Source: Heliocidaris erythrogramma
Taxonomy: Eukaryota > Echinodermata > Echinoidea > Camarodonta > Echinometridae
Direction of reading: 5' to 3'
DNA: 64,000 nucleotides
Assembly: GCA_025617745.1 (NCBI GenBank)
Contig: CM046856.1
Coordinates: 47,258,625 to 47,322,624 of the forward strand
Shown: piece after piece, positions 1 to 43,708 of the stretch
Layout: every line of letters starts with the position of its first letter
How positions within the stretch are numbered: the first letter of the stretch is position 1
Made by a program: the position numbers and the translations under genes
The notes under the pieces: generated by a model
Database searches by the model: none
What the model was told of the DNA's origin: nothing
Seen by the model: the letters and a program-made list of their open reading frames with translations, nothing else

Positions 1-246
1 ACAATATAGGATACTATGTAATACTCTAAACTGAAATTCACCGTCTAAAGTGCATAATCTCCGGGTCAAAAAGGAAGTCGCAATTGCAATGTAGTATATG
101 AATGTGCTATTTAAGCGTGTCTATAAACGCAAAGGTTTCCTTATATTATCTATTAGGATTTTATAACATAATTTAGAAGTCAGTCCTTCATTATGATATC
201 ATTATTTTTATCGCCTACTTTATACATTAATCCCTCGATCGTCCCG

Positions 247-355
247 TCCCCAGTGGCGCAATTGGTTAGCGCGCTGTACTTATAGACAGTACCCAGCGCC
301 GTCTGGCTACGCTGTAGGCATGCGGAGGTGGTGAGTTCGATCCTCACCTGGGGAA
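247..355 (+). tRNA. tRNA-Ile-UAU: tRNA-Ile(UAU), array copy 1
   Basis: Canonical D-loop AATTGGTTA and 7-bp acceptor stem. Variable loop ends in G (AGGTG), changing the base expected to pair with A15. Confidence 0.9.
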
Positions 356-362
356 ACCGGGG

Positions 363-368
363 TTTTTT
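363..368 (+). terminator. Pol III T-run terminator, representative
   Basis: TTTTTT starting 8 nt after the tRNA 3' end in copy 1. Nearly every array copy has the same run in the context CGGGGTTTTTTGC; copy 26 has seven T and copy 57 has a broken run (TATTTT). Confidence 0.85.
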
Positions 369-827
369 GCACTCAGTAGAGAGAAAACCATTCCAAAGTG
401 TACATGTGCTTTTCTGAGTTTCCATCTATCCCAAACAAAATCTTTTCCCATTTTAAAGTATCTAAGTGCATCAATTTCATTTCCAACTATCTTTTATTTT
501 TTCCACAGAAAGAACATAAGTTATATGATATAAAGCCAGATTGATACAGTTTATCATTACAATATAGGATACTATGTAATACTCTACTGAACTGAAATTC
601 ACCATCTAAAGTGCATAATCTCCGGGTCAAAAAGGAAGTCGCAATTGCAATGTAGTATATGAATGTGCTATTTTAGAGTGTCTATAAACGCAAAGGTTTC
701 CGTATATTATCTATAAGAATTTTATAACATAATTTAGAAGTCAGTCCTTCATATGATATCACTATAAATATTTTTATCGCCTACTTTATACATTAAATCC
801 GAGTAATTAATCGATCGTCCCGTCCCG

Positions 828-936
828 TCCCCAGTGGCGCAATTGGTTAGCGCGCTGTACTTATAAACAGTACCCAGCGCCGTCTGGCTACGCTGTAGGC
901 ATGCGGAGGTTGTGAGTTCGATCCTCACCTGGGGAA
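828..936 (+). tRNA. tRNA-Ile-UAU: tRNA-Ile(UAU), array copy 2
   Basis: Canonical body. The first intron base is A, not G (TATAAACAG). Confidence 0.9.
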
Positions 937-1434
937 ACCGGGGTTTTTTGCACTCAGTAGTGAGAAAACCTTTCCAAAGTATACATGTGCTTTTCTGAGT
1001 TTCCATCTAACCCAACCAAAAATCTCTTCCCATTTTACGGCATCAATTTCTTTTCCCCCTATTTCTTTCCACAATTTTGTAACAAATTGACACTTCATAA
1101 ATAAGTGATTGTATACATCAATTTTCTTTCCACAGAAAGAACATAAGTTTTAATATTAAGCCAGATTGATACAGTTGATCATTACAATATAGGATACTAT
1201 GTAATAATCTAAACTGAAATTCACCATCTAAAGTGCATAATCTCCGGGTCAAAAAGGAAGTTGCAATTGTAGATGTAGTATATGAATGTGCTATTTAAGC
1301 GTGTCTATAAACGCAAAGGTTTCCTTATATTATCTATAAGGATTTTATAACATAATTTAGAAGTCAGTCCTTCATGATATCATTATTTTTATCGCCTACT
1401 AATACACATTAATTCCGAGTAATCGATCGTCCCG

Positions 1435-1543
1435 TCCCCAGTGGCGCAATATGTTAGCGCGCTGTACTTATAGACAGTACCCAGCGCCGTCTGGCTACGT
1501 TGTAGGCATGCGGAGGTTGTGAGTTCGATCCTCACCTGGGGAA
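1435..1543 (+). tRNA. tRNA-Ile-UAU: tRNA-Ile(UAU), array copy 3, D-loop variant
   Basis: D-loop AATATGTTA: the G18G19 pair is broken, which should weaken D-loop/T-loop contact. Intron has GTTGTAGG near its 3' end. Confidence 0.75.
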
Positions 1544-2056
1544 ACCAGGGTTTTTTGCACTCAGTCGAGAGAAAACCATTCCAAAGTATACATGTGCTTT
1601 TCTGAGTTTCCATCTAACCCAACCAAAATCTCTTCCCATGCATTTTACGGTATCTAAGTGCATCAATTTCATTTCCCCCTATTTCTTTCCACAATTTTGT
1701 AACAAATTGACACTTCATAAATAAGTGATTGTATACATCAATTTTCTTTCCACAGAAAGAACATAAGTTATATGATATTAAGCCAGATTGATACAGTTTA
1801 TCATTACAATATAGGATACTATGTAATACTCTAAACTGAAATTCACCGTCTAAAGTGCATAATCTCCGGGTCAAAAAGGAAGTCGCAATTGCAATGTAGT
1901 ATATGAATGTGCTATTTAAGCGTGTCTATAAACGCAAAGGTTTCCTTATATTATCTATTAGGATTTTATAACATAATTTAGAAGTCAGTCCTTCATATGA
2001 TATCATTATTTTTATCGCCTACTTTATACATTAATTCCGAGTAATCGATCGTCCCG

Positions 2057-2165
2057 TCCCCAGTGGCGCAATATGTTAGCGCGCTGTACTTATAGACAGT
2101 ACCCAGCGCCGTCTGGCTACGCTGTAGGCATGCGGAGGTTGTGAGTTCGATCCTCACCTGGGGAA
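2057..2165 (+). tRNA. tRNA-Ile-UAU: tRNA-Ile(UAU), array copy 4, D-loop variant
   Basis: D-loop AATATGTTA; rest canonical. Followed by a tRNA-less unit piece at 2304-2640. Confidence 0.75.
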
Positions 2166-2814: not shown

Positions 2815-2927
2815 TCCCCAGTGGCGCATGCAATAGGTTAGCGCGCTGTACTTATAGACAGTACCCAGCGCCGTCTGGCTACGCTGTAGGCATGCGGAGG
2901 TTGTGAGTTCGATCCTCACCTGGGGAA
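2815..2927 (+). tRNA. tRNA-Ile-UAU: tRNA-Ile(UAU)-like, array copy 5, expanded D-loop
   Basis: An ATGC insertion gives a 13-nt D-loop (ATGCAATAGGTTA) and disrupts the A box spacing; may be non-functional. First copy of the 4.41-kb repeat. Confidence 0.7.
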
Positions 2928-3442
2928 ACCAGGGTTTTTTGCACTCAGTAGAGAGAAAACCATTCCAAAGTGTACACCTGTGCTTTCCTGAGTTTCCATC
3001 GAAGCCAACCAAAACCAATTCCCATTTTACGGTATCTAAGTGCATCAATTTCATTTCCCCCTATTTCTTTCCACAATTTTGTAACAAATTGACACTTCAT
3101 AAAAAAGTGATTGTATACATCAATTTTCTTTCCACAGAAAGAACATAAGTTATATGATATAAAGCCAGATTGATACATTTTATCATTACAATATAGGATA
3201 CTATGTAATACTCTAAACTGAAATGACCATCTAAAGTGCATAATCTCCGGGTCAAAAAGGAAGTCGCAATTGCAATGTAGTATATGAATGTGCTATTTAA
3301 GCGTGTCTATAAACACAAAGGTTTGCTTCTATTATCTATTAGGATTTTATAACATAATTTAGAAGTCAGTCCTTCATATGATATCATTATTTTTATCGCC
3401 TACTTTATACATTAATTCCGAGTAATCGATCGTCCCGTCCCG

Positions 3443-3551
3443 TCCCCAGTGGCGCAATTGGTTAGCGCGCTGTACTTATAGACAGTACCCAGCGCCGTCT
3501 GGCTACGCTGTAGGCATGCGGAGGTTGTGAGTTCGATCCTCACCTGGGGAA
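3443..3551 (+). tRNA. tRNA-Ile-UAU: tRNA-Ile(UAU), array copy 6
   Basis: Fully canonical body; 5' flank has a duplicated CCCGT. Confidence 0.92.
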
Positions 3552-4011
3552 ACCGGGGTTTTTTGCACTCAGTAGAGAGAAAACCATTCCAAAGTGTACA
3601 TGTGCTTTTCTGAGTTTCCATCTATCCCAAACAAAATCTTTTCCCATTTTAAGGTATCTAAGTGCATCAATTTCATTTCCAACTATCTTTTATTTTTTTC
3701 CACAGAAAGAACATAAGTTATAATTATGACATGAAGCCAGATTGATACAGTTTATCATTACAATATAGGATACTATGTAATAATCTAAACTGAAATTCAC
3801 CATCTAAAGTGCATAATCTCCGGGTCAAAAAGGAAGTTGCAATTGTAGATGTAGTATATGAATGTGCTATTTAAGCGTGTCTATAAACGCAAAGGTTTCC
3901 TTATATTATCTATAAGGATTTTATAACATAATTTAGAAGTCAGTCCTTCATATGATATCATTATTTTTATCGCCTACTTTATAAATTAATTCCGCGTAAT
4001 CGATGGTCCCG

Positions 4012-4120
4012 TCCACAGTGGCGCAATTGGTTAGCGCGCTGTACTTATAGACAGTACCCAGCGCCTTCTGGCTACGCTGTAGGCATGCGGAGGTTGTGAG
4101 TTCGATCCTCACCTGGGGAA
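4012..4120 (+). tRNA. tRNA-Ile-UAU: tRNA-Ile(UAU), array copy 7, acceptor mismatch
   Basis: Acceptor 5' strand TCCACAG puts A4 opposite G69. Intron has CCTTCTGG in place of CCGTCTGG. Confidence 0.8.
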
Positions 4121-4623
4121 ACCGCGGTTTTTTGCACTCAGTAGAGAGAAAACCATTCCAAAGTGTACACCTGTGCTTTCCTGAGTTTCCATCTAACCCA
4201 ATCAAAATCTCTTCCCATTTTACGGTATCTAAGTGCATCAATTTCATTTCCCCCTATTTCTTTCCACAATTTTGTAACAAATTGACACTTCATAAATAAG
4301 TGATTGTATACATCAATTTTCTTTCCACAGAAAGAACATAAGTTATATAAGCCAGATTGATACAGTTTATCATTACAATATAGGATACTATGTAATACTC
4401 TAAACTGAAATGACCATCTAAAGTGCATAATCTCCGGGTCAAAAAGGAAGTCGCAATTGCAATGTAGTATATGAATGTGCTCTTTAAGCGTGTCTATAAA
4501 CGCAAAGGTTTCCTTATATTATCTATTAGGATTTTATAACATAATTTAGAAGTCAGTCCTTCATATTATGATATCATTTTATCGCCTACTTTATGCATTA
4601 ATTCCGAAAAATCGATCGTCCCG

Positions 4624-4736
4624 TCCCCAGTGGCGCATGCAATAGGTTAGCGCGCTGTACTTATAGACAGTACCCAGCGCCGTCTGGCTACGCTGTAGGC
4701 ATGCGGAGGTTGTGAGTTCGATCCTCACCTGGGGAA
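4624..4736 (+). tRNA. tRNA-Ile-UAU: tRNA-Ile(UAU)-like, array copy 8, expanded D-loop
   Basis: ATGC insertion in the D-loop; other arms intact. Confidence 0.7.
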
Positions 4737-5233
4737 ACCGGGGTTTTTTGCACTCAGTAGTGAGAAAACCTTTCCAAAGTATACATGTGCTTTTCTGAGT
4801 TTCCATCTAACCCAACCAAAAATCTCTTCCCATTTTACGGCATCAATTTCTTTTCCCCCTATTTCTTTCCACAATTTTGTAACAAATTGACACTTCATAA
4901 ATAAGTGATTGTATACATCAATTTTCTTTCCACAGAAAGAACATAAGTTATAATATTAAGCCAGATTGATACAGTTGATCATTACAATATAGGATACTAT
5001 GTAATAATCTAAACTGAAATTCACCATCTAAAGTGCATAATCTCCGGGTCAAAAAGGAAGTCGCAATTGCAATGTAGTATATGAATGTGCTATTTAAGCG
5101 TGTCTATAAACGCAAAGGTTTCCTTATATTATCTATTAGGATTTTATAACATAATTTAGAAGTCAGTCCTTCATATTATGATATCATTTTATCGCCTACT
5201 TTATGCATTAATTCCGAAAAATCGATCGTCCCG

Positions 5234-5346
5234 TCCCCAGTGGCGCATGCAATAGGTTAGCGCGCTGTACTTATAGACAGTACCCAGCGCCGTCTGGCTA
5301 CGCTGTAGGCATGCGGAGGTTGTGAGTTCGATCCTCACCTGGGGAA
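5234..5346 (+). tRNA. tRNA-Ile-UAU: tRNA-Ile(UAU)-like, array copy 9, expanded D-loop
   Basis: ATGC insertion in the D-loop; unit near-identical to that of copy 8, a local duplication of 610 bp. Confidence 0.7.
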
Positions 5347-5843
5347 ACCGGGGTTTTTTGCACTCAGTAGTGAGAAAACCTTTCCAAAGTATACATGTGC
5401 TTTTCTGAGTTTCCATCTAACCCAACCAAAAATCTCTTCCCATTTTACGGCATCAATTTCTTTTCCCCCTATTTCTTTCCACAATTTTGTAACAAATTGA
5501 CACTTCATAAATAAGTGATTGTATACATCAATTTTCTTTCCACAGAAAGAACATAAGTTATAATATTAAGCCAGATTGATACAGTTGATCATTACAATAT
5601 AGGATACTATGTAATACTCTAAACTGAAATGACCATCTAAAGTGCATAATCTCCGGATCAAAAAGGAAGTCGCAATAGCAATGTAGTATATGAATGTGCT
5701 ATTTAAGCGTGTCTATAAACGCAAAGGTTTCCTTATATTATCTATTAGGATTTTATAACATAATTTAGAAGTCAGTCCTTCATATGATATCATTATTTTT
5801 AACGCCTACTTTATACATTAATTCCGAGAAATCGATCGTCCCG

Positions 5844-5952
5844 TCCCCAGTGGCGCAATATGTTAGCGCGCTGTACTTATAGACAGTACCCAGCGCCGTC
5901 TGGCTACGCTGTAGGCATGCGGAGGTTGTGAGTTCGATCCTCACCTGGGGAA
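5844..5952 (+). tRNA. tRNA-Ile-UAU: tRNA-Ile(UAU), array copy 10, D-loop variant
   Basis: D-loop AATATGTTA; followed by a tRNA-less unit piece (6161-6421). Confidence 0.75.
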
Positions 5953-6619
5953 ACCGGGGTTTTTTGCACTCAGTAGAGAGAAAACCATTCCAAAGTGTAC
6001 ATGTGCTTTTCTGAGTTTCCATCTATCCCAAACAAAATCTTTTCCCATTTTAAAGTATCTAAGTGCATCAATTTCATTTCCAACTATCTTTTATTTTTTT
6101 CCACAGAAAGAACATAAGTTATATGATATAAAGCCAGATTGATACAGTTTATCATTACAATTATAGGATACTATGTAATACTCTACTGAACTGAAATTCA
6201 CCATCTAAAGTGCATAATCTCAGGGTCAAAAAGGAAGTCGCAATTGTAACAAATTGACACTTCATAAATAAGTGATTGTATACATCAATTTTCTTTCCAC
6301 AGAAAGAACATAAGTTATATGATATTAAGCCAGATTGATACAGTTTATCATTACAATATAGGATACTATGTAATACTCTAAACTGAAATTCACCATCTAA
6401 AGTGCATAATCTCCGGGTCAAAAAGGAAGTCGCAATTGCAGATGTAGTATATGAATGTGCTATTTAAGCGTGTCTATAAACGCAAAGGTTTCCGTATATT
6501 ATCTATAAGAATTTTATAACATAATTTAGAAGTCAGTCCTTCATATGATATCACTATAAATATTTTTATCGCCTACTTTATACATTAATTCCGAGTAATT
6601 AATGGATCGTCCCGTCCCG

Positions 6620-6728
6620 TCCACAGTGGCGCAATTGGTTAGCGCGCTGTACTTATAGACAGTACCCAGCGCCGTCTGGCTACGCTGTAGGCATGCGGAG
6701 GTTGTGAGTTCGATCCTCACCTGGGGAA
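6620..6728 (+). tRNA. tRNA-Ile-UAU: tRNA-Ile(UAU), array copy 11, acceptor mismatch
   Basis: TCCACAG acceptor strand (A4 against G69); D-loop canonical, intron standard. Confidence 0.8.
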
Positions 6729-7228
6729 ACCGGGGTTTTTTGCACTCAGTAGTGAGAAAACCTTTCCAAAGTATACATGTGCTTTTCTGAGTTTCCATCT
6801 AACCCAACCAAAAATCTCTTCCCATTTTACGGCATCAATTTCTTTCCCCCTATTTCTTTCCACAATTTTGTAACAAATTGACACTTCATAAATAAGTGAT
6901 TGTATACATCAATTTTCTTTCCACAGAAAGAACATAAGTTATATGATATCAAGCCAGATTGATACAGTTTATCATTACATAATAGGATACTATATGTAAT
7001 AATCTAAACTGAAATTCACCATCTAAAGTGCATAATCTCCGGGTCAAAAAGGAAGTCGCAATTGCAATGTAGTATATGAATGTGCTATTTAAGCGTGTCT
7101 ATAAACGCAAAGGTTTCCTTATATTATCTATAAGGATTTTATAACATAATTTAGAAGTCAGTCCTTCATATTATGATATCATTTTATCGCCTCCTTTATG
7201 CATTAATTCCGAAAAATCGATCGTCCCG

Positions 7229-7341
7229 TCCCCAGTGGCGCATGCAATAGGTTAGCGCGCTGTACTTATAGACAGTACCCAGCGCCGTCTGGCTACGCTG
7301 TAGGCATGCGGAGGTTGTGAGTTCGATCCTCACCTGGGGAA
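7229..7341 (+). tRNA. tRNA-Ile-UAU: tRNA-Ile(UAU)-like, array copy 12, expanded D-loop
   Basis: Counterpart of copy 5 in the second 4.41-kb repeat; ATGC insertion retained. Confidence 0.7.
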
Positions 7342-7856
7342 ACCAGGGTTTTTTGCACTCAGTAGAGAGAAAACCATTCCAAAGTGTACACCTGTGCTTT
7401 CCTGAGTTTCCATCGAAGCCAACCAAAACCAATTCCCATTTTACGGTATCTAAGTGCATCAATTTCATTTCCCCCTATTTCTTTCCACAATTTTGTAACA
7501 AATTGACACTTCATAAAAAAGTGATTGTATACATCAATTTTCTTTCCACAGAAAGAACATAAGTTATATGATATAAAGCCAGATTGATACATTTTATCAT
7601 TACAATATAGGATACTATGTAATACTCTAAACTGAAATGACCATCTAAAGTGCATAATCTCCGGGTCAAAAAGGAAGTCGCAATTGCAATGTAGTATATG
7701 AATGTGCTATTTAAGCGTGTCTATAAACACAAAGGTTTGCTTCTATTATCTATTAGGATTTTATAACATAATTTAGAAGTCAGTCCTTCATATGATATCA
7801 TTATTTTTATCGCCTACTTTATACATTAATTCCGAGTAATCGATCGTCCCGTCCCG

Positions 7857-7965
7857 TCCCCAGTGGCGCAATTGGTTAGCGCGCTGTACTTATAGACAGT
7901 ACCCAGCGCCGTCTGGCTACGCTGTAGGCATGCGGAGGTTGTGAGTTCGATCCTCACCTGGGGAA
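7857..7965 (+). tRNA. tRNA-Ile-UAU: tRNA-Ile(UAU), array copy 13
   Basis: Canonical; counterpart of copy 6. Confidence 0.92.
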
Positions 7966-8425
7966 ACCGGGGTTTTTTGCACTCAGTAGAGAGAAAACCA
8001 TTCCAAAGTGTACATGTGCTTTTCTGAGTTTCCATCTATCCCAAACAAAATCTTTTCCCATTTTAAGGTATCTAAGTGCATCAATTTCATTTCCAACTAT
8101 CTTTTATTTTTTTCCACAGAAAGAACATAAGTTATAATTATGACATGAAGCCAGATTGATACAGTTTATCATTACAATATAGGATACTATGTAATAATCT
8201 AAACTGAAATTCACCATCTAAAGTGCATAATCTCCGGGTCAAAAGGAAGTTGCAATTGTAGATGTAGTATATGAATGTGCTATTTAAGCGTGTCTATAAA
8301 CGCAAAGGTTTCCTTATATTATCTATAAGGATTTTATAACATAATTTAGAAGTCAGTCCTTCATTATGATATCATTATTTTTATCGCCTACTTTATAAAT
8401 TAATTCCGCGTAATCGATGGTCCCG

Positions 8426-8534
8426 TCCACAGTGGCGCAATTGGTTAGCGCGCTGTACTTATAGACAGTACCCAGCGCCTTCTGGCTACGCTGTAGGCAT
8501 GCGGAGGTTGTGAGTTCGATCCTCACCTGGGGAA
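8426..8534 (+). tRNA. tRNA-Ile-UAU: tRNA-Ile(UAU), array copy 14, acceptor mismatch
   Basis: Counterpart of copy 7, with the same A4 and CCTTCTGG intron change. Confidence 0.8.
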
Positions 8535-9037
8535 ACCGCGGTTTTTTGCACTCAGTAGAGAGAAAACCATTCCAAAGTGTACACCTGTGCTTTCCTGAGT
8601 TTCCATCTAACCCAATCAAAATCTCTTCCCATTTTACGGTATCTAAGTGCATCAATTTCATTTCCCCCTATTTCTTTCCACAATTTTGTAACAAATTGAC
8701 ACTTCATAAATAAGTGATTGTATACATCAATTTTCTTTCCACAGAAAGAACATAAGTTATATAAGCCAGATTGATACAGTTTATCATTACAATATAGGAT
8801 ACTATGTAATACTCTAAACTGAAATGACCATCTAAAGTGCATAATCTCCGGGTCAAAAAGGAAGTCGCAATAGCAATGTAGTATATGAATGTGCTCTTTA
8901 AGCGTGTCTATAAACGCAAAGGTTTCCTTATATTATCTATTAGGATTTTATAACATAATTTAGAAGTCAGTCCTTCATATTATGATATCATTTTATCGCC
9001 TACTTTATGCATTAATTCCGAAAAATCGATCGTCCCG

Positions 9038-9150
9038 TCCCCAGTGGCGCATGCAATAGGTTAGCGCGCTGTACTTATAGACAGTACCCAGCGCCGTCTG
9101 GCTACGCTGTAGGCATGCGGAGGTTGTGAGTTCGATCCTCACCTGGGGAA
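9038..9150 (+). tRNA. tRNA-Ile-UAU: tRNA-Ile(UAU)-like, array copy 15, expanded D-loop
   Basis: Counterpart of copy 8; ATGC insertion. Confidence 0.7.
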
Positions 9151-9649
9151 ACCGGGGTTTTTTGCACTCAGTAGTGAGAAAACCTTTCCAAAGTATACAT
9201 GTGCTTTTCTGAGTTTCCATCTAACCCAACCAAAAATCTCTTCCCATTTTACGGCATCAATTTCTTTTCCCCCTATTTCTTTCCACAATTTTGTAACAAA
9301 TTGACACTTCATAAATAAGTGATTGTATACATCAATTTTCTTTCCACAGAAAGAACATAAGTTATAATATTAAGCCAGATTGATACAGTTGATCATTACA
9401 ATATAGGATACTATGTAATAATCTAAACTGAAATTCACCATCTAAAGTGCATAATCTCCGGGTCAAAAAGGAAGTCGCAATTGCAATGTAGTATATGAAT
9501 GTGCTATTTAAGCGTGTCTATAAACGCAAAGGTTTCCTTATATTATCTATAAGGATTTTATAACATAATTTAGAAGTCAGTCCTTCATAATGATATCATT
9601 ATTTTTATCGCCTACTTTATACATTAATTCCGCGTAATCGATCGTCCCG

Positions 9650-9758
9650 TCCCCAGTGGCGCAATTGGTTAGCGCGCTGTACTTATAGACAGTACCCAGC
9701 GCCGTCTGGCTACGCTGTAGGCATGCGGAGGTTGTGAGTTCGATCCTCACCTGGGGAA
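9650..9758 (+). tRNA. tRNA-Ile-UAU: tRNA-Ile(UAU), array copy 16
   Basis: Canonical; occupies the slot of copy 9 but with a different unit type, so the second higher-order repeat is not a pure copy of the first. Confidence 0.92.
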
Positions 9759-10268
9759 ACCGGGGTTTTTTGCACTCAGTAGAGAGAAAACCATTCCAAA
9801 GTGTACACCTGTGCTTTCCTGAGTTTCCATCTAACCCAATCAAAATCTCTTCCCATTTTACGGTATCTAAGTGCATCAATTTCATTTCCCCCTATTTCTT
9901 TCCACAATTTTGTAACAAATTGACACTTCATAAATAAGTGATTGTATACATCAATTTTCTTTCCACAGAAAGAACATAAGTTATATGATATTAAGCCAGA
10001 TTGATACAGTTTATCATTACAATATAGGATACTATGTAATACTCTAAACTGAAATGACCATCTAAAGTGCATAATCTCCGGATCAAAAAGGAAGTCGCAA
10101 TAGCAATGTAGTATATGAATGTGCTATTTAAGCGTGTCTATAAACGCAAAGGTTTCCTTATATTATCTATTAGGATTTTATAACATAATTTAGAAGTCAG
10201 TCCTTCATATGATATCATTATTTTTAACGCCTACTTTATACATTAATTCCGAGAAATCGATCGTCCCG

Positions 10269-10377
10269 TCCCCAGTGGCGCAATATGTTAGCGCGCTGTA
10301 CTTATAGACAGTACCCAGCGCCGTCTGGCTACGCTGTAGGCATGCGGAGGTTGTGAGTTCGATCCTCACCTGGGGAA
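10269..10377 (+). tRNA. tRNA-Ile-UAU: tRNA-Ile(UAU), array copy 17, D-loop variant
   Basis: D-loop AATATGTTA; counterpart of copy 10. Confidence 0.75.
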
Positions 10378-11041
10378 ACCGGGGTTTTTTGCACTCAGTA
10401 GAGAGAAAACCATTCCAAAGTGTACATGTGCTTTTCTGAGTTTCCATCTATCCCAAACAAAATCTTTTCCCATTTTAAAGTATCTAAGTGCATCAATTTC
10501 ATTTCCAACTATCTTTTATTTTTTCCACAGAAAGAACATAAGTTATATGATATAAAGCCAGATTGATACAGTTTATCATTACAATATAGGATACTATGTA
10601 ATACTCTACTGAACTGAAATTCACCATCTAAAGTGCATAATCTCAGGGTCAAAAGGAAGTCGCAATTGTAACAAATTGACACTTCATAAATAAGTGATTG
10701 TATACATCAATTTTCTTTCCACAGAAAGAACATAAGTTATATGATATTAAGCCAGATTGATACAGTTTATCATTACAATATAGGATACTATGTAATACTC
10801 TAAACTGAAATTCACCATCTAAAGTGCATAATCTCCGGGTCAAAAAGGAAGTCGCAATTGCAGATGTAGTATATGAATGTGCTATTTAAGCGTGTCTATA
10901 AACGCAAAGGTTTCCGTATATTATCTATAAGAATTTTATAACATAATTTAGAAGTCAGTCCTTCATATGATATCACTATAAATATTTTTATCGCCTACTT
11001 TATACATTAATTCCGAGTAATTAATGGATCGTCCCGTCCCG

Positions 11042-11150
11042 TCCACAGTGGCGCAATTGGTTAGCGCGCTGTACTTATAGACAGTACCCAGCGCCGTCTG
11101 GCTACGCTGTAGGCATGCGGAGGTTGTGAGTTCGATCCTCACCTGGGGAA
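11042..11150 (+). tRNA. tRNA-Ile-UAU: tRNA-Ile(UAU), array copy 18, acceptor mismatch
   Basis: A4 against G69; counterpart of copy 11. Confidence 0.8.
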
Positions 11151-11651
11151 ACCGGGGTTTTTTGCACTCAGTAGTGAGAAAACCTTTCCAAAGTATACAT
11201 GTGCTTTTCTGAGTTTCCATCTAACCCAACCAAAAATCTCTTCCCATTTTACGGCATCAATTTCTTTTCCCCCTATTTCTTTCCACAATTTTGTAACAAA
11301 TTGACACTTCATAAATAAGTGATTGTATACATCAATTTTCTTTCCACAGAAAGAACATAAGTTATATGATATCAAGCCAGATTGATACAGTTTATCATTA
11401 CATAATAGGATACTATATGTAATAATCTAAACTGAAATTCACCATCTAAAGTGCATAATCTCCGGGTCAAAAAGGAAGTCGCAATTGCAATGTAGTATAT
11501 GAATGTGCTATTTAAGCGTGTCTATAAACGCAAAGGTTTCCTTATATTATCTATAAGGATTTTATAACATAATTTAGAAGTCAGTCCTTCATATTATGAT
11601 ATCATTTTATCGCCTCCTTTATGCATTAATTCCGAAAAATCGATCGTCCCG

Positions 11652-11764
11652 TCCCCAGTGGCGCATGCAATAGGTTAGCGCGCTGTACTTATAGACAGTA
11701 CCCAGCGCCGTCTGGCTACGCTGTAGGCATGCGGAGGTTGTGAGTTCGATCCTCACCTGGGGAA
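11652..11764 (+). tRNA. tRNA-Ile-UAU: tRNA-Ile(UAU)-like, array copy 19, expanded D-loop
   Basis: ATGC insertion; third counterpart of copies 5 and 12. Confidence 0.7.
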
Positions 11765-15375: not shown

Positions 15376-15392
15376 ACCGGGGTTTTTTGCAC

Positions 15393-17411: not shown

Positions 17412-17417
<6 letters not shown>

Positions 17418-17453
<36 letters not shown>

Positions 17454-31440: not shown

Positions 31441-31537
31441 TCCCCAGTGGCGCAATTGGTTAGCGCGCTGTACTTATAGACAGTACCCAGCGCCGTCTGG
31501 CTACGCTGTAGGCATGCGGAGGTTCTCACCTGGGGAA
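31441..31537 (+). pseudogene. tRNA-Ile(UAU) pseudogene, array copy 46, T-arm deletion
   Basis: A 12-nt deletion removes the 5' half of the T stem and the T-loop (GAGGTT joined directly to CTCACC), taking the B box with it. Pol III recruitment and folding should both fail. Confidence 0.93.
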
Positions 31538-32037: not shown

Positions 32038-32134
32038 TCCCCAGTGGCGCAATTGGTTAGCGCGCTGTACTTATAGACAGTACCCAGCGCCGTCTGGCTA
32101 CGCTGTAGGCATGCGGAGGTTCTCACCTGGGGAA
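32038..32134 (+). pseudogene. tRNA-Ile(UAU) pseudogene, array copy 47, T-arm deletion
   Basis: Same 12-nt deletion as copy 46, 597 bp away in a near-identical unit: the dead unit was duplicated in tandem. Confidence 0.93.
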
Positions 32135-32641: not shown

Positions 32642-32750
32642 TCCCCAGTGGCGCAATTGGTTAGCGCGCTGTACTTATAGACAGTACCCAGCGCCGTCTG
32701 GCTACGCTGTAGGCATGCGGAGGTTGTGAGTTCGATCCTCACCTGGGGAA
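32642..32750 (+). tRNA. tRNA-Ile-UAU: tRNA-Ile(UAU), array copy 48
   Basis: Canonical; unit matches that of copy 43. Confidence 0.92.
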
Positions 32751-33147: not shown

Positions 33148-33260
33148 TCCCCAGTGGCGCATGCAATAGGTTAGCGCGCTTTACTTATAGACAGTACCCA
33201 GCGCCGTCTGGCTACGCTGTAGGCATGCGGAGGTTGTGAGTTCGATCCTCACCTGGGGAA
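33148..33260 (+). pseudogene. tRNA-Ile(UAU) pseudogene, array copy 49
   Basis: ATGC insertion plus CTTTA anticodon stem. Its unit is a 506/526-bp recombinant with breaks near 33064 (after GTGCAGAAAGTG) and 33294. Confidence 0.75.
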
Positions 33261-33673: not shown

Positions 33674-33782
33674 TCCCCAGTGGCGCAATTGGTTAGCGCG
33701 CTGTACTTATAGACAGTACCCAGCGCCTTCTGGCTACGCTGTAGGCATGCGGAGGTTGTGAGTTCGATCCTCACCTGGGGAA
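33674..33782 (+). tRNA. tRNA-Ile-UAU: tRNA-Ile(UAU), array copy 50
   Basis: Canonical body with CCTTCTGG intron. Confidence 0.92.
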
Positions 33783-34291: not shown

Positions 34292-34400
34292 TCCCCAGTG
34301 GCGCAATAGGTTAGCGCGCTGTACTTATAGACAGTACCCAGCGCCGTCTGGCTACGCTGTAGGCATGCGGAGGTTGTGAGTTCGATCCTCACCTGGGGAA
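34292..34400 (+). tRNA. tRNA-Ile-UAU: tRNA-Ile(UAU), array copy 51
   Basis: D-loop AATAGGTTA; unit matches copy 34 at +10123 bp. Confidence 0.88.
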
Positions 34401-34906: not shown

Positions 34907-35015
34907 TCCCCAGTGGCGCAATTGGTTAGCGCGCTGTACTTATAGACAGTACCCAGCGCCGTCTGGCTACGCTGTAGGCATGCGGAGGTTGTGAGTTCGA
35001 TCCTCACCTGGGGAA
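34907..35015 (+). tRNA. tRNA-Ile-UAU: tRNA-Ile(UAU), array copy 52
   Basis: Canonical. Confidence 0.92.
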
Positions 35016-35511: not shown

Positions 35512-35620
35512 TCCCCAGTGGCGCAATAGGTTAGCGCGCTGTACTTATAGACAGTACCCAGCGCCGTCTGGCTACGCTGTTGGCATGCCGAGGTTGTGAG
35601 TTCAATCCTCACCTGGGGAA
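35512..35620 (+). tRNA. tRNA-Ile-UAU: tRNA-Ile(UAU), array copy 53, edge copy
   Basis: Last copy of block B. Anticodon 3' strand is TGCCG (mismatch with U28), T-loop is TTCAATC and the intron has GTTGGC: likely decaying. Confidence 0.7.
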
Positions 35621-35853
35621 ACCGGGGTTTTTTTGCACTCAGTAGAGAGAAAACCATTCCAAAGTGTACATGTGCTTTTCTGAGTTTCCATCTAACCCAA
35701 AAAATCTTTTCCCATTTTAAAGTATCTAAGTGCATCAATTTCATTTCCAACTATCTTTTATTTTTTCCACAGAAAGAACATAAGTTATATGATATAAAGC
35801 CAGATTGATACAGTTTATCATTACAATATAGGATACTATGTAATACTCCACTG

Positions 35854-36604
35854 TACGGAAGCGTTAAAGTGCCATTCGACTTGACGACTTGTCGAGATAT
35901 TTTATCTCGACAAGTCGACTTAATATCCATATTTTGTCGACTTGTAAAGATATTTATCTAACCATGTCGACTTAATAACTTTCATAAGTCGACATGGCGA
36001 TATAAATTATCTTGCCAAGTCAACTTCCCAAAAATTATAAGTCGACATGGCGACATAAATTATCTTACCAAGTCGACTTAACAAAAATACATGTCGTCAT
36101 GGCGAGATATATTATCTTGCCAAGTCGACTTCCCAAATATAATAAGTCAACATGGCGACATGAATTATCTTACCAAGTCGACTTAACAAAAAAATTATGT
36201 CGTCATGGCGAGATATGTTATCTTGCCAAGTCGACTTCCCAAAAATTATAAGTCGACATGGCGACATAAATTATCTTACCAAGTCGACTTAACAAATATA
36301 CATGTCGTAATGGCGAGATATATTATCTTGCCAAGTCGACTTCCCAAAAATTATAAGTCAACATGGCAACATAAATTATCTTAGCAAGTCGACTTAACAA
36401 AAAAATTATGTCGTCATGGCGAGATATATTATCTTGCCAAGTCGACTTCCCAAAAATTGTAAGTCAACATGGCGACATAAATTATCTTACCAAGTCGACT
36501 TAACAAAAATACATGTCGTCATGGCGAGATATATTATCTTGCCAAGTCGACTTCCCAAAAATTATAAGTCAACATGGCAACATAAATTATCTTAGCAAGT
36601 CGAC
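35854..36604. repeat. Palindromic minisatellite, period about 105 bp (two half-units of 52-53 bp)
   Basis: Half-units start AAGTCGACATGGCGACATAA or ATGTCGTCATGGCGAGATAT and end CCAAGTCGACTT, so each half-unit is an imperfect inverted repeat (AAGTCGAC...GTCGACTT). Starts seen at 35986, 36039, 36091, 36144, 36197 and 36250 give a steady 52-53 bp. The left edge (35887-35914) has a hairpin, CTTGTCGAGAT...ATCTCGACAAG. Such arrays occur inside some DNA transposon termini; no transposase is seen here. Confidence 0.85.
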
Positions 36605-36608
36605 TTAA

Positions 36609-37510
36609 AGGAGAATCAACCCTTAATTACAAATTTACTTATTTTGGAAGGTGTAATATATTCCTACTTATTGGCCTAAATCATTTTCTAATAAGATATC
36701 AGAAAAAGGGAAAAATAAAGATATTCCAACAGCCGGTATCGTCTCCTACTCATTTCCATGGGGGCTGCCATTTTCTTGCTGATTTGGAGTTGTACATGAA
36801 CCATTGAGAAATGTTCCAGTCAAGAAGATATATTGAATCCAATACCTAAATTGCTTTTCTTCATTAACTAAAATCCCATATGTGACGAAAAATATAAAGT
36901 GGGTGTTTACATGTATTATAAAAATTAAATCTTTATAATGATATTTTTAAATTGTCTGGTTTTGCTTAACAAAAATCTATTTTCTTGGGTTTGCCAAACA
37001 GAGCAGAACATAATATATGCAACATGCATTCTGACTTTTCAAATCCATTATCCGAAAGCAGGTGAATGCATAGCTTGCCGCTATAGATGCTCAGGGATGA
37101 AACATCCATAAATTTGAATTAATTTGCTCCGTCCCATACGTCACAGTATCGAGAAAATAGATTTCTATTAAGCGAATATCGATTTTCAACAGAAATATAT
37201 AAAGAAATCTTCAGTTTAAAAATAAATTGACATATCTATTCAATATGTTTAATCTAAAACTGGTTTTTAATTTTGAAAAAGGCAATTGGGCATTTGGATT
37301 AAGAAAATCTTCATGTACACATAAAAAAAATGGCAGCCTCCATGTACTGCTAGCAGACGATACATATTGGGAGCAGATGATAAATTTTGCTCAGAAAATC
37401 TTGATTCGTATCGATCTCGTATATTTTGACGCGAAGCCATATAGTCCAACAAGTAGGAATAAATAACACCTTTGAACAATATCGTCTGTATTTTTGAGCG
37501 TAATTCTCCT
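36609..37510. mobile_element. 902-bp TTAA-flanked non-autonomous element inside the minisatellite
   Basis: TTAA occurs at 36605-36608 and 37511-37514, where the uninterrupted minisatellite would read GTCGACTTAACAAAA. Ends are AGGAGAAT...ATTCTCCT, with further looser symmetry (AAGGTGT...ATTCCTACT near both ends). TTAA duplication is typical of piggyBac-type elements, but the ends do not begin with CCC and no transposase is encoded. Confidence 0.75.
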
Positions 37511-37514
37511 TTAA

Positions 37515-37605
37515 CAAAAAAAATATATCGTCATGGCGAGATATATTATCTTGCCAAGTCGACTTCCCAAAAATTGTAAGTCAACATGGCGACATAAATT
37601 ATCTT
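37515..37605. repeat. Continuation of the palindromic minisatellite
   Basis: Resumes after the TTAA-flanked insertion with the half-unit ATATCGTCATGGCGAGATAT and one more half-unit, then stops at ATCTTA. Confidence 0.85.
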
Positions 37606-37610
37606 AATGT

Positions 37611-37886
37611 GTAAACAAATCTTTCGGCATATTACTCCCAGTTTTAAAGATCGTATGCTCGATCTGTAATGAAAAACACAAGTCAGAAAAAATTGGAACC
37701 AGCGGGATTCGAACCTGTCATCTACTGCTTGCCGGGCAGCGACTTAACCACCAGGCTATTCTGGTTCACGGCCAAGTCACGACGAACTGGAATCAAATAC
37801 CCAAGATCCTCTTCTTTCTGACTCATTAATATTCAAACGGTCCGCCGTAGACAATGGTTAGTAAATATGCCGAAAGATTTGTTTAC
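37611..37886. mobile_element. Short inverted-repeat element enclosing a tRNA-like sequence
   Basis: Near-perfect 23-nt inverted repeats at 37611-37633 (GTAAACAAATCTTTCGGCAT...) and 37864-37886 frame about 275 bp. The interior holds a minus-strand tRNA-like sequence. No open frame of note. Confidence 0.7.
37695..37767 (-). pseudogene. Degenerate tRNA-like sequence
   Basis: On the minus strand: acceptor GAACCAG/CTGGTTC, A-box-like TAGCCTGGTGGTTAAG, anticodon stem GCTGC/GCAGT closing a 7-nt loop CCGGCAA, B box GGTTCGAATCC. C replaces the invariant U33 and the T stem has two mismatches. It may be a tRNA pseudogene or the head of a tRNA-derived SINE. Confidence 0.65.
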
Positions 37887-38286
37887 AAATTAAAAATTCC
37901 TCCCCAGTCAAGCTCCTTCGTTTACTAACCATTTACTAACCATGTAGCCAATCGAAAGCCAGAATAGAAAGATCAAAACTGGACCTTGTATTCTTTTAAG
38001 AAACAATTTAACTGGTTAATTTCCGCCATCAGAAACACTTCGAACCAATCACCAAAGAAACCCTTGTCAACGTGCATGGACGTACTTTCCCATAGAAACG
38101 TGTGTAAATATGGTGTTTCGGCTTGTGTTTAACATCAATTAACAGGCCGTTTTGAAACAAAATGGGCCAGAATTCTCAAAACAAGCAGTCATACACATAG
38201 TTTCATGTACAGCAGAACATTTAGGTTTTTTATATATATTTTCCTTTTTAACTGAATTAAACCAGTGTAAACTAAAAAAGATAAAA
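37887..38286. other. Intergenic, nothing recognised
   Basis: AT-rich with a short direct repeat TTTACTAACCAT near 37920-37945. No coding or RNA signal seen. Confidence 0.5.
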
Positions 38287-38846
38287 TGTGACCCGACGCC
38301 TCAAAACCTACAATAGGTCGCCAAAATGTTTATTTTTGTTTTTGTTTTGTACATTTTCTGAAAGTCGAGATTCTCAGCTTTCCAATGGTATATCACTTGC
38401 CTAGTTTACTCTGTGTTCGATCTCTGTGAGCGCCCAAGTAAAACTGGGTATTCAAAGGCCATAGGAACCAGTATGAAGGGATTATCAGATTAGGCTGAAT
38501 TTTGGCAAACTGATACAGGAGGACCTATTCATTACTCACTCCAAAAATCAATTTAATACCTTTAGAGGTAAAGTAGTAATTTGGCATTGAATGAAAGTAT
38601 TACAAAAACTCTTTAAACATTCATTAGCTGGACAGGTGAAAAAGGGAGTTATTTTAAAATACCCCAAAAACATATTTCTAAGTCGAATTACGACTCACAA
38701 ACTTGAGACATGATAGAATGATAATGAAACTACCCATTTCTATCAAACACAGAAAATTGACTGATCGAAGCAAAATTGCTATTTTGGGCTGTTTGCTACG
38801 TTGTGGTCCGTGCGACTTATTGTAGGTTTTGAGGCGGCGGGTCACA
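38287..38846. mobile_element. 560-bp MITE with 35-bp terminal inverted repeats
   Basis: Left end 38287-38321 begins TGTGACCCGACGCCTCAAAA and right end 38812-38846 is its reverse complement with two mismatches. No open frame. Target duplication unclear (AA possible). Confidence 0.8.
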
Positions 38847-39020
38847 AATGGTTTTACAAGTTGAGATTTATGGATTTTCATGATTAATGTACATGGTTCT
38901 ATGGTGGAAATTTGTTTTGGGTGATGCGCGCGCGGAAAGTTAAACTCGCGCAATGCAACACACTTTTTGGTCAATAATTCCTGGCGCCCTCCTATTGGGA
39001 AATCCTGGATACGCCCCTGG
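38847..39020. other. Transposon-end-like sequence abutting array block C
   Basis: The minus strand reads CCAGGGGCGTATCCAGGATT from the array junction, resembling the CAGGGGCG-type ends of some DNA transposons. The partner end was not located, so the element is unassigned. Confidence 0.4.
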
Positions 39021-39676: not shown

Positions 39677-39785
39677 TCCCCAGTGGCGCAATTGGTTAGC
39701 GCGCTGTACTTATAGACAGTACCCAGCGCCGTCTGGCTACCCTGTAGGCATGCGGAGGTTGTGAGTTCGATCCTCACCTGGGGAA
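39677..39785 (+). tRNA. tRNA-Ile-UAU: tRNA-Ile(UAU), array copy 54
   Basis: Canonical body; intron CTACCCTG breaks the distal intron hairpin. First tRNA of block C. Confidence 0.9.
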
Positions 39786-39984: not shown

Positions 39985-40983
39985 CCCTTACAAAAATGTC
40001 CTGTGGTAATACCACAGGACTGTACCACATCACTATACCACAGAATGTACCACAGGAACGGTCCTGTGGTAACGTCCCAATTTACCACAGGAATACCACA
40101 GGAATGGCTTAATATGTGGTAAAGGTTATCACAGAAGGGATTAGTATGTGAAATTAGATACCATAGAATTACCACAGACTACCACACACCAGTTACCACA
40201 CAGAATTACCACACCGGTTACCACACACCAGGTACCACACAGATTACCACACAAATATATGATACAGTACCACAGGAATGCAACAGGACCACAAGAATAC
40301 ATAACCAAGGAGATTTAGCTAAAATCTCTTTGACATACGGTAACACAATCATCTACTTATATTACCACACAAAATATATATGATAAAGTACGACAGGTGT
40401 ACTGTGGTAACAGATATTCCTGTAGTATTTCGGATGTTAACAATATGTACAACAGAAATACAACATCACAAGAATACCACAACTAGCAGTTGACATTACC
40501 ACACAAGTATATGGTGTGGTAATATGTATCCATGTGGTATTTTGGATGTACCACAGGAGCACAAAAAGACCACAAGAATACAACCGCCACCAGTTGACAT
40601 TATCACACAATTATATGCTAAGGTGCCACAGGTGTACCTGTGGTAACCCTGTGTCAGCAAATATTCCTGTCGTATTTCGGATGTTAACAATATGTACCAC
40701 AGGAATACAAGAGCACCACCGGAATACCACAGCTAGAAGGTGACATTACCACACAAGTATATTGTGTGGCAACTTGTATTCATGTGGTATTTCGGATGTA
40801 CCACATGTATTGAGTACAACAGGACCACAAGAATACCACACCCACCAGTTGACATTACCACACAGGTATATGGTAAAGTACCACAGGTGTACCTGTTAGC
40901 AGCTGTGGTAACATATATTCCTGTGGTATTTTGTGTGGTAAAGACAAGTACCACAGAGAATACCACAGGACATTTTGTAAGGG
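39985..40983. mobile_element. 999-bp TA-flanked MITE rich in ACCACA/TGTGGT
   Basis: Interrupts the array phrase CAGTTTATCATTAC with TA on both sides (39983-39984, 40984-40985), so the empty site can be read from other units. Termini are CCCTTACAAAAATGTCCTGT and its inverse CACAGGACATTTTGTAAGGG. The interior is almost wholly CCACAG, ACCACAC and TGTGGTA motifs in both orientations. Phrases such as GTTGACATTACCACACAAG recur near 40491, 40590, 40739 and 40850, a period of about 250 bp in pairs. Consistent with a Tc1/mariner-type non-autonomous element. No transposase. Confidence 0.88.
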
Positions 40984-41256: not shown

Positions 41257-41365
41257 TCCCCAGTGGCGCAATAGGTTAGCGCGCTGTACATATAGACAGT
41301 ACCCAGCGCCGTCTGGCTACGCTGTGGGCATGGGGAGGTTGTGAGTTTGATTCTCACCTGGGGAA
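41257..41365 (+). pseudogene. tRNA-Ile(UAU) pseudogene, array copy 55
   Basis: U33 is changed to A (CATATA), T-loop is TTTGATT, anticodon 3' strand is TGGGG. The invariant U-turn base is lost. Confidence 0.85.
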
Positions 41366-41814
41366 ACCAGGGTTTTTTGCACTCAGTAGAGAGAAAACCA
41401 TTCCAAGTGTACAATGTCATGTGCTTTTCTGAGTTTCCATCTAACCCAGACAAAATCTCCTCCCATTTTCATGTATCTAAGTGCATCAATTTCATTTCCA
41501 ACTATCTCTTATTTTTTTCCACAGAAAGAACATAAGTTACATGATATAAAGCCAGATTGATACAGTTTATCATTACAATATAGGATACTATTCACCATCT
41601 AAAGTGCATAATCTCCGCGGGTCAAAAAGGAAGTCACAATTGTAGATGTAGTATATGAATGTGCTATTTAAGCGTGTCTATAAACGCAAAGGTTTCCTTA
41701 TATTATCTATAAGGATTTTATAACATAATTTAGAAGTCAGTCCTTCATATGATATCATTATAAATATTTTTATCGCCTATTTTATACATTAATTCCGAGT
41801 AATCGATCGTCCCC

Positions 41815-41923
41815 TCCCCAGTGGCGCAATTGGTTAGCGCGCTGTACTTATAGACAGTACCCAGCGCCGTCTGGCTACGCTGTAGGCATGCGGAGGTTGT
41901 GAGTTCGATCCTCACCTGGGGAA
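41815..41923 (+). tRNA. tRNA-Ile-UAU: tRNA-Ile(UAU), array copy 56
   Basis: Canonical body; 5' flank reads GTCCCCTCCCC. Confidence 0.92.
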
Positions 41924-42438
41924 ACCGGGGTTTTTTGCACTCAGTAGAGAGAAAACCTTTCCAAAGTATACAATGTGCTTTTCTGAGTTTCCATCTAACC
42001 CAACCAAAATCTCTTCCCATTTTACGGTATCTATAAGTGCATCAATTTCATTTCCAGCTATTTCTTTCCACAATTTTGTAACAAATTGACACTTCATAAA
42101 TAAGTGATTGTATACATCAATTTTCTTTCCACGGAAAGAACATAAGTTATATGATATGAAGCCAGATTGATACAGTTTATCATTACAATATAGGATACTA
42201 TGTAATAATCTAAACTGAAATTCACCATCTAAAGTGCATAATCTCGGGGTCAAAAAGGAAGTCGCAATTGCAGATGTAGTATAATTATGATTGTGCTATT
42301 TAAGCGTGTCTATAAACGCAAAGGTTTCCTTATTATCTATCAGGATTTTACAACATAATTTAGAAGTCAGTCCTTCATATGATATCATTATTTTTATCGC
42401 CTACTTTATACATTAATTCCGAGTAATCAATCGTCCCG

Positions 42439-42547
42439 TCCCCAGTGGCGCAATAGGTTAGCGCGCTGTACTTATAGACAGTACCCAGCGCCGTCTGGCT
42501 ACCCTGTAGGCATGCGGAGGTTGTGAGTTCGATCCTCACCTGGGGAA
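42439..42547 (+). tRNA. tRNA-Ile-UAU: tRNA-Ile(UAU), array copy 57, weak terminator
   Basis: D-loop AATAGGTTA. The downstream run is broken to TATTTT, leaving T4, so termination may leak into the next sequence. Confidence 0.85.
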
Positions 42548-42996
42548 ACCGGGGTATTTTGCACTCAGTAGAGAGAAAACCATTTCAAGTGTACAATGTC
42601 ATGTGCTTTTCTGAGTTTCCATCTAACCCAACCAAAATCTCCTCCCATTTTCATGTATCTAAGTGCATCAATTTCATTTCCAACTATCTCTTATTTTTTT
42701 CCACAGAAAGAACATAAGTTACATGATATAAAGCCAGATTGATACAGTTTATCATTACAATATAGGATACTATTCACCATCTAAAGTGCATAATCTCCGC
42801 GGGTCAAAAAGGAAGTCACAATTGTAGATGTAGTATATGAATGTGCTATTTAAGCGTGTCTATAAACGCAAAGGTTTCCTTATATTATCTATAAGGATTT
42901 TATAACATAATTTAGAAGTCAGTCCTTCATATGATATCATTATAAATATTTTTATCGCCTATTTTATACATTAATTCCGAGTAATCGATCGTCCCC

Positions 42997-43105
42997 TCCC
43001 CAGTGGCGCAATTGGTTAGCGCGCTGTACTTATAGACAGTACCCAGCGCCGTCTGGCTACGCTGTAGGCATGCGGAGGTTGTGAGTTCGATCCTCACCTG
43101 GGGAA
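42997..43105 (+). tRNA. tRNA-Ile-UAU: tRNA-Ile(UAU), array copy 58
   Basis: Canonical; repeats copy 56 at +1182 bp. Confidence 0.92.
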
Positions 43106-43559
43106 ACCGGGGTTTTTTGCACTCAGTAGAGAGAAAACCTTTCCAAAGTATACATGTGCTTTTCTGAGTTTCCATCTAACCCAACCAAAATCTCTTCCCA
43201 TTTTACGGTATCTATAAGTGCATCAATTTCATTTCCAGCTATTTCTTTCCACAATTTTGTAACAAATTGACACTTCATAAATAAGTGATTGTATACATCA
43301 ATTTTCTTTCCACGGAAAGAACATAAGTTATATGATATAAAGCCAGATTGGTACAGTTTATCATTACAATATAGGATACTATGTAATAATCTAAACTGAA
43401 ATTCACCATCTAAAGTGCATAATCTCCGGGTCAAAAAGGAAGTCGCAATTGCAGATGTAGTATATGAATGTGCTATTTAAGCGTGCATGTCTATAAACGC
43501 AAAGGTTTCCGTATATTATATCTACTTGATACATTAATTCCGCGTAATCGGTCGTCCCG

Positions 43560-43668
43560 TCCCCAGTGGCGCAATAGGTTAGCGCGCTGTACTTATAGAC
43601 AGTACCCAGCGCCGTCTGGCTACGCTGTAGGCATGCGGAGGTTGTGAGTTCGATCCTCACCTGGGGAA
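43560..43668 (+). tRNA. tRNA-Ile-UAU: tRNA-Ile(UAU), array copy 59, last copy
   Basis: D-loop AATAGGTTA, otherwise intact, with T6 terminator; the array ends about 40 bp downstream. Confidence 0.88.
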
Positions 43669-43708
43669 ACCAGGGTTTTTTGCACTCAGTAGAGAGAAAA
43701 CCATTCCA

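Follow-up and report, generated by a model that had tools for sequence, protein, structure and literature searches.

Rows of transfer RNA (tRNA) genes have been described from plants, animals and protists. In Arabidopsis, tRNA-Ser and tRNA-Tyr genes form the tandem SYY cluster (PMC12308677), tandem tRNA arrays are present in Hydractinia and Nematostella (PMC11067881), a tandem tRNA-gene repeat lies at human 1q23.3 (PMC4041453), and Entamoeba carries tandem tRNA arrays as well (PMC2652664). Moreover, tRNA genes can be very numerous in animals, with one survey giving more than 17,000 for Nematostella and about 20,000 for zebrafish (PMC2888827). The locus considered here, in the echinoid Heliocidaris erythrogramma, is a tandem array of intron-bearing tRNA-Ile(UAU) genes, which had been proposed in an initial annotation made from the sequence letters alone; its accompanying statement that tandem tRNA arrays are documented elsewhere is borne out by the papers just cited. 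No paper with such an array as its subject was found by title among the matches listed for open-licence PubMed Central text. In animals, tRNA-Ile(UAU) is usually a low-copy gene. The array is real, and probably it has been amplified recently, with its intact copies forming the bulk of the AUA-reading tRNA genes of this organism.

The window, which is the whole stretch of 64,000 nucleotides that was analysed, corresponds to C4:47258625-47322624 (contig CM046856.1) in a 1.06-Gb assembly of 26 contigs (GCA_025617745.1). With one tRNA-Ile(UAU) copy as the query, nhmmer detects 59 copies in it, every one on the plus strand, from 247 to 43,668, and 70 copies over about 57 kb (68 plus, 2 minus) when 204 kb around the window are searched, extending on C4 from about 47,245,569 to 47,302,292. 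The 59 plus-strand UAU copies with a 35-nt intron and a T-run that the initial annotation had placed at 1..43708 are thus confirmed by nhmmer and by alignment, while its left limit is not: the copies do not start at base 1, and 11 further ones (9 plus, 2 minus) lie left of the window, so that the array reaches about 13 kb beyond that limit. Both minus-strand copies sit at the array's left end, and one of them, C4:47245569-47245677, carries the anticodon loop CTTACA and hence UAC instead of UAU. Copies in the window mostly follow one another at 506-628 bp, with three steps of 758-777 bp and three long gaps, and the leftmost units of the array are spaced by 1,539-1,715 bp. The unit, with a consensus of 618 bp, about 36% GC and a single tRNA, is repeated head to tail with homologous spacers (59 window copies; 61 regional units aligned). 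The features of the window are as follows, those from 247 to 43668 being the tRNA-Ile(UAU) copies, with the basis of each entry in brackets ("rules" are the intactness rules explained below).

1-43712, plus: window part of the array, unit consensus 618 bp, extending left of the window, with three insertions (unit coverage, consensus)
247-355, plus: intact, T to G in variable loop (nhmmer, rules)
828-936, plus: intact (RF00005, nhmmer, rules)
1435-1543, plus: lacks G18 (nhmmer, rules)
2057-2165, plus: lacks G18 (nhmmer, rules)
2815-2927, plus: 4-nt D-loop insertion, lowest-energy fold not cloverleaf (nhmmer, folding, rules)
3443-3551, plus: intact, the folding example (nhmmer, folding, rules)
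4012-4120, plus: acceptor mismatch at base 4 (rules)
4624-4736, plus: D-loop insertion (nhmmer, rules)
5234-5346, plus: D-loop insertion (nhmmer, rules)
5844-5952, plus: lacks G18 (nhmmer, rules)
6620-6728, plus: acceptor mismatch at base 4 (rules)
7229-7341, plus: D-loop insertion (nhmmer, rules)
7857-7965, plus: intact (nhmmer, rules)
8426-8534, plus: acceptor mismatch at base 4 (rules)
9038-9150, plus: D-loop insertion (nhmmer, rules)
9650-9758, plus: intact (nhmmer, rules)
10269-10377, plus: lacks G18 (nhmmer, rules)
11042-11150, plus: acceptor mismatch at base 4 (rules)
11652-11764, plus: D-loop insertion (nhmmer, rules)
12280-12388, plus: intact (nhmmer, rules)
12849-12957, plus: acceptor mismatch at base 4 (rules)
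13473-13581, plus: intact (nhmmer, rules)
14043-14151, plus: acceptor mismatch at base 4 (rules)
14655-14767, plus: D-loop insertion (nhmmer, rules)
15267-15375, plus: acceptor variant, G-U wobble at pair 2-71 (rules)
15885-15993, plus: intact, AATAGG type, like dispersed copies (nhmmer, rules)
16509-16617, plus: intact (nhmmer, rules)
17078-17186, plus: intact (nhmmer, rules)
21096-21204, plus: intact (nhmmer, rules)
21708-21820, plus: D-loop insertion (nhmmer, rules)
22316-22428, plus: D-loop insertion with first-base and anticodon-stem changes (rules)
22930-23038, plus: intact (nhmmer, rules)
23551-23659, plus: intact (nhmmer, rules)
24169-24277, plus: intact (nhmmer, rules)
24784-24892, plus: intact (nhmmer, rules)
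25353-25461, plus: intact (nhmmer, rules)
25971-26079, plus: intact (nhmmer, rules)
26589-26697, plus: intact (nhmmer, rules)
27158-27266, plus: intact (nhmmer, rules)
27776-27884, plus: intact (nhmmer, rules)
28398-28510, plus: D-loop insertion (nhmmer, rules)
29011-29123, plus: D-loop insertion with anticodon-stem change (rules)
29636-29744, plus: intact (nhmmer, rules)
30254-30362, plus: intact (nhmmer, rules)
30823-30931, plus: intact (nhmmer, rules)
31441-31537, plus: T-arm and B box deleted (nhmmer, rules)
32038-32134, plus: T-arm and B box deleted (nhmmer, rules)
32642-32750, plus: intact (nhmmer, rules)
33148-33260, plus: D-loop insertion with anticodon-stem change (rules)
33674-33782, plus: intact (nhmmer, rules)
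34292-34400, plus: intact (nhmmer, rules)
34907-35015, plus: intact (nhmmer, rules)
35512-35620, plus: T-loop variant, otherwise complete (rules)
39677-39785, plus: intact (nhmmer, rules)
41257-41365, plus: pseudogene, lacks U33, B box changed (nhmmer, rules)
41815-41923, plus: intact (nhmmer, rules)
42439-42547, plus: intact (nhmmer, rules)
42997-43105, plus: intact (nhmmer, rules)
43560-43668, plus: intact, final array copy (nhmmer, rules)
16011-16358, minus: spacer example, antisense open frame with a piece of the zf-RVT domain (PF13966) of a long interspersed nuclear element (LINE), recurring in many units (Pfam E 2.9e-7)
2815-7228, plus: 7-unit higher-order block of 4,414 bp, repeated at 7229-11651 (unit distances)
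24784-26588, plus: 3-unit higher-order block of 1,805 bp, adjoining 26589-28397 (unit distances)
17421-20812, plus: LINE inserted in a unit, with endonuclease and reverse transcriptase domains and a GAAAT tail (domains, unit coverage)
35849-39020, strand not assigned: insertion into the array, including a 53-bp tandem repeat (unit coverage)
39994-40983, strand not assigned: insertion into the array, with short repeats (unit coverage)

An intact copy consists of a 74-nt tRNA that is interrupted after position 37, one base past the anticodon on the 3' side, by a 35-nt intron, with 7/7 acceptor pairs, 5/5 T-stem pairs and two internal motifs that we take to be the A and B boxes. The intron measures 35 nt without indels across the 61 aligned units, and the UAU anticodon follows U33 in 58/59 window copies, U33 being changed in the remaining one. 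Within 20 nt downstream, a run of at least four T is present in 70/70 regional copies, including 59/59 in the window, and one of at least five in 58/59 window copies. Given its internal A and B boxes and its T-run, each intact copy should be transcribed by RNA polymerase III (Pol III) on its own, and it is predicted to be spliced after position 37 and to read AUA. When "intact" denotes a copy that passes explicit rules on every feature checked, 32/59 window copies qualify, which agrees with the roughly 32 counted by the initial annotation, and 38/70 do so in the region, where they yield only 3 distinct mature sequences. Of the 27 other window copies, 12 have four extra nucleotides in the D-loop, an acceptor mismatch occurs in 6, G18 is missing from 4, the T-arm is deleted in 2 and U33 is lost in 1; the remaining two are a T-loop variant and an acceptor wobble variant.

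A covariance-model check is also passed by most copies, since the gathering score of Rfam RF00005 is reached by 43/59 window copies with fast filters and by 44/59 with laxer ones (bases 1-44,000), and one D-loop-insertion copy passes as well, at 37.2 bits, when given 3.2 kb alone. The best unspliced RF00005 score of the array copies is 50.7 bits, the same as for three of the four copies dispersed elsewhere in the genome. ARAGORN reported no tRNA genes in the window, probably because of the intron.

The share of this locus in the isoacceptor was counted genome-wide with 5'-exon patterns, a count that misses any gene whose 5' exon is very different. The strict pattern matches 58 places and the looser one (up to 2 mismatches) 70 places, 66 of them inside the array region and 4 outside it; the reversed controls gave 0 matches, and chance is therefore excluded. 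As only 4 places lie outside the array region, the locus dominates its isoacceptor by gene count, and the conclusion that the array holds most genes for it is supported. The suggestion that this one locus could dominate AUA decoding accordingly stands at the level of gene number, with 66/70 places here and 38/70 copies intact.

The four dispersed places, at C5:16.6 Mb, at C5:37.6 Mb and twice on C17, all pass Rfam with 50.3-50.7 bits. Three of the four have common 3' flanks past the T-run and two have common 5' flanks, which indicates that they moved as DNA segments. The two C17 copies possess a LINE-derived 5' flank as in the array and a different 3' flank, the latter also being found at the C5:16.6 Mb copy, and the leftmost array units match the C17 locus across about 1 kb. 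Another dispersed copy (locus L026), with flanks that look unrelated by eye, differs from the AATAGG type of the array by 1 exon and 3 intron changes. At L026:2493-2601, the dispersed gene is followed by an apparent degenerate second copy of itself, as judged by eye. CUB-domain frames (Pfam) occur at L027:13-1233 near a C17 tRNA-Ile(UAU) copy, with a similar frame at L028:863-1297, and because these two loci match over long stretches, a larger segment has been duplicated. The A and B boxes within a repeat, together with CAT-anticodon tRNA-like repeats scattered in the genome, could also recall a family of retropseudogenes or tRNA-derived short interspersed nuclear elements (SINEs) that came to stand in tandem by accident. 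However, no more than 4 places were found outside the array region, three of them with common DNA flanks, and no SINE-type tail was seen by eye; this explanation was rejected as exceedingly improbable.

The repeat unit combines the tRNA gene with a fragment, in antisense orientation, of a dispersed LINE retrotransposon, as the minus strand of the spacer holds part of the C-terminal zinc-finger domain, zf-RVT. Among 150 scored of 3,286 first-look candidates, relatives of this piece occur on contigs C1 to C21 of 26, with open frames of up to 1,270 aa, and most of them match only query residues 23-79 or 23-107. Since the relatives are dispersed and most have only this stretch in common, the LINE appears to be a dispersed family of the ordinary kind. 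LINEs specific for tRNA genes have been published (PMC4640811), and the zf-RVT piece does lie close to the tRNA in the unit, so that a LINE targeting this tRNA gene might have built the unit and left the spacer as its mark. Such an origin is highly unlikely, because the relatives are spread over 21 contigs against 4 tRNA-Ile(UAU) places outside the array region and because what they have in common is internal, near the C-terminus; it was rejected on these grounds, as judged at tRNA-Ile(UAU) places alone. Beyond the array, an open frame with a DDE_3 transposase domain (Pfam) lies at 45097-46239, and a LINE-like stretch at 46637-49885, which bears only a distant likeness to the spacer LINE piece, runs through several frames with endonuclease, reverse transcriptase and zf-RVT pieces, the last two just below Pfam cut-offs.

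In the array, the 3' flank known from C17 ends soon past the T-run and is followed by other sequence and then by the LINE piece, the simplest reading of which would be the tandem duplication of a segment made up of the LINE piece, about 120 bp, the tRNA and about 24 bp. The process may have begun with a single tRNA-Ile(UAU) gene beside a LINE tail, an arrangement still seen at the two C17 copies. Originally the units probably measured about 1.5 kb, deletion later reducing them to about 0.6 kb, as is suggested by the leftmost spacing of 1.5-1.7 kb in combination with the C17 match. Unequal exchange would next have copied blocks of several units, and the damaged copies would represent products of birth and death within the array.

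The array has spread by duplication of multi-unit blocks, as in satellite DNA. Neighbouring units differ by a mean of 34 changes (61 aligned units), yet at a distance of three units (1,805 bp) or seven units (about 4.42 kb) there are often only 0-3. Between the 7-unit blocks at 2,815-7,228 and 7,229-11,651, the seven unit pairs show 0-3 changes in five cases, 8 in another and 16 in the last; for the 3-unit block at 24,784, no change separates the members of the first two pairs, and those of the third are not close. Identical units at block distance might also be produced by an assembly artefact that multiplied one or a few units. This is very unlikely, as there are many distinct unit types, with a median difference of 32 between units, and three different insertions interrupt the array, but an artefact could still alter the exact copy number.

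Block amplification of this kind bears equally on the possibility, already raised by the initial annotation, that the locus is mostly a satellite that happens to carry Pol III promoters. On this account, the repeat multiplies as DNA, its copies are mostly heterochromatic, the few dispersed genes suffice and the promoters are passengers, much as the tRNA-Ser/Tyr cluster of Arabidopsis is silent in most tissues (PMC12308677). Besides the block amplification, two results favour it and weigh against the main reading. Changes are present in 32/70 regional copies. Variable sites are not significantly fewer in the gene (17/109) than in the spacer (118/509; P=0.097), so many copies may be decaying, and the intron (6/35) is similar in this respect to exon 1 (7/38) and exon 2 (4/36). 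Other results weigh against the main reading alone. The comparison with C17 runs in the direction that constraint predicts and does not reach significance, with 1/109 differences in the gene against 20/433 in the LINE plus 5' flank for one copy (P=0.094) and 2/109 against 25/370 for the other (P=0.058). In addition, the unspliced intact copy folds with a z of only -1.39, 20/200 shuffles being equally stable, the spliced intact sequence has a minimum-energy fold other than the plain cloverleaf, and the intact array copies carry U1-A72. In human tRNA-Ile(UAU) this pair is G1-C72; unmodified tRNA often lacks the cloverleaf as its minimum-energy fold. The D-loop-insertion copy that was folded likewise departs from the cloverleaf in its lowest-energy structure.

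The satellite character is thus borne out for the mode of amplification, for the altered copies and for the lack of statistically visible constraint on the gene, whereas the presence of 38 intact copies, which yield only 3 mature sequences, and the T-run kept in 70/70 speak against silence, and a largely silent satellite is considered possible but unlikely. Within the array, exons and intron have mean pairwise diversities of 0.016 and 0.014, against 0.044 elsewhere, and the LINE piece taken alone, with 62/346 variable sites, is about as variable as the gene. Together with the direction of the C17 comparison and the few changes in the gene at L026, these patterns hint that the tRNA-Ile(UAU) family may be under long-term constraint that is relaxed on single array copies.

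Single-isoacceptor arrays recur in this genome, with at least two besides that of tRNA-Ile(UAU). In a genome-wide Rfam tRNA search in which 63 of 104,536 candidates were scored, 59/63 fall in a second array at C12:18,858,807-18,889,677, where the six copies read are tRNA-Lys(UUU) genes without an intron and the spacing, in the stretch measured, is about 280-310 bp or double. Another array, at C7:36,142,897-36,188,014, was met with one of the patterns for tRNA-Ile(AAU): with up to 3 mismatches, it fits 157 places, and among the matches listed, which are ordered by mismatches and start at 2, all but two lie in this array and none reads AAU. Three C7-array copies and one C8 copy are tRNA-Ile(GAU) according to ARAGORN, and they score 63.7-65.5 bits. 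Between the C7 (L056:79-151) and C8 (L057:98-170) genes, two acceptor pairs and one T-stem pair are changed on both sides, as seen by eye, which argues that the GAU genes stayed functional.

Eukaryotes are described in a review as missing GAU and converting AAU to IAU, with IAU and UAU covering AUU, AUC and AUA (PMC8007984). Ile(GAT) is recorded for 31% of eukaryotes in one survey (PMC9858662), and a sea cucumber genome is reported without it (PMC8580430). In H. erythrogramma, five tRNA-Ile(AAU) patterns, all built on known animal sequences, gave no convincing gene genome-wide among the matches listed, and a gene in masked or missing sequence would have escaped them. Two of them, including one that stops short of an intron site, had zero matches, and the C9 match of a third was dismissed for want of an anticodon stem by eye. 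Another fits 120 places, and most of those listed belong to a scattered repeat that has CAT at the anticodon position (for example on C1, C3 and C7), probably a SINE family. AAU stands in the loop, among the matches listed, at C19:30,788,600 (one mismatch) and C8:38,561,347 (two mismatches); these places could be members of the repeat or odd tRNA-Ile(AAU) genes, and they count against a loss of this tRNA.

It is conceivable, though doubtful, that the isoleucine codon box has been rebuilt on two arrays, with AAU gone, the C7 GAU genes reading AUU and AUC, and the UAU array plus the four dispersed genes reading AUA. Were tRNA-Ile(AAU) indeed absent, the UAU tRNA would be the sole reader of AUA, and a box built on two arrays would explain the expansion of the tRNA-Ile(UAU) gene. 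AUA accounts for 25/111 isoleucine codons in 12 chaperonin-family segments chosen from 70 matches (1,310 codons) and for 8/44 in one frame that is receptor-like by eye, figures from a small sample, with two of six loci divergent by eye, that give no measure of whether AUA demand is unusual. Of all these points, whether tRNA-Ile(AAU) has been lost most deserves attention. Together with the C7 array, the tRNA-Ile(UAU) array poses the question of whether an animal genome can decode this box by GAU and UAU tRNAs without an inosine-type tRNA-Ile. The array itself reveals an intron-bearing tRNA gene expanding by satellite-style duplication with about half of its copies still usable, and it provides a gene count that is comparable with tRNA sequencing.

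Rows of tRNA genes were already known, and the array is not unique in its own genome either. In having more than one tRNA array per genome, H. erythrogramma resembles Hydractinia and Nematostella, although the description of the arrays in those two mentions no LINE-derived spacer or block structure (PMC11067881). Entamoeba has tandem arrays of nearly uniform units, as here, but it is a protist with almost all of its tRNA genes arrayed and up to 5 per unit, and short tandem repeats, unlike here, lie between the array genes of E. histolytica and E. dispar (PMC2652664). The repeat at human 1q23.3 is likewise a tandem tRNA-gene repeat in an animal, with a variable number of 9-43 units there; there the unit is 7.3 kb long and GC-rich and carries several different tRNAs as well as a CTCF site, in contrast to the 0.6-kb, one-tRNA unit described here (PMC4041453). 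Closest in kind is the SYY cluster of Arabidopsis: it is a tandem cluster rich in an intron-bearing tRNA, with 54 clustered tRNA-Tyr genes, and it too shows a majority sequence, variants, pseudogene-like copies (13/54 there) and expansion by tandem duplication, while differing in belonging to a plant, in a unit of Ser and Tyr genes, and in having 16 dispersed Tyr genes where 4 dispersed Ile(UAU) places are present here (PMC12308677).

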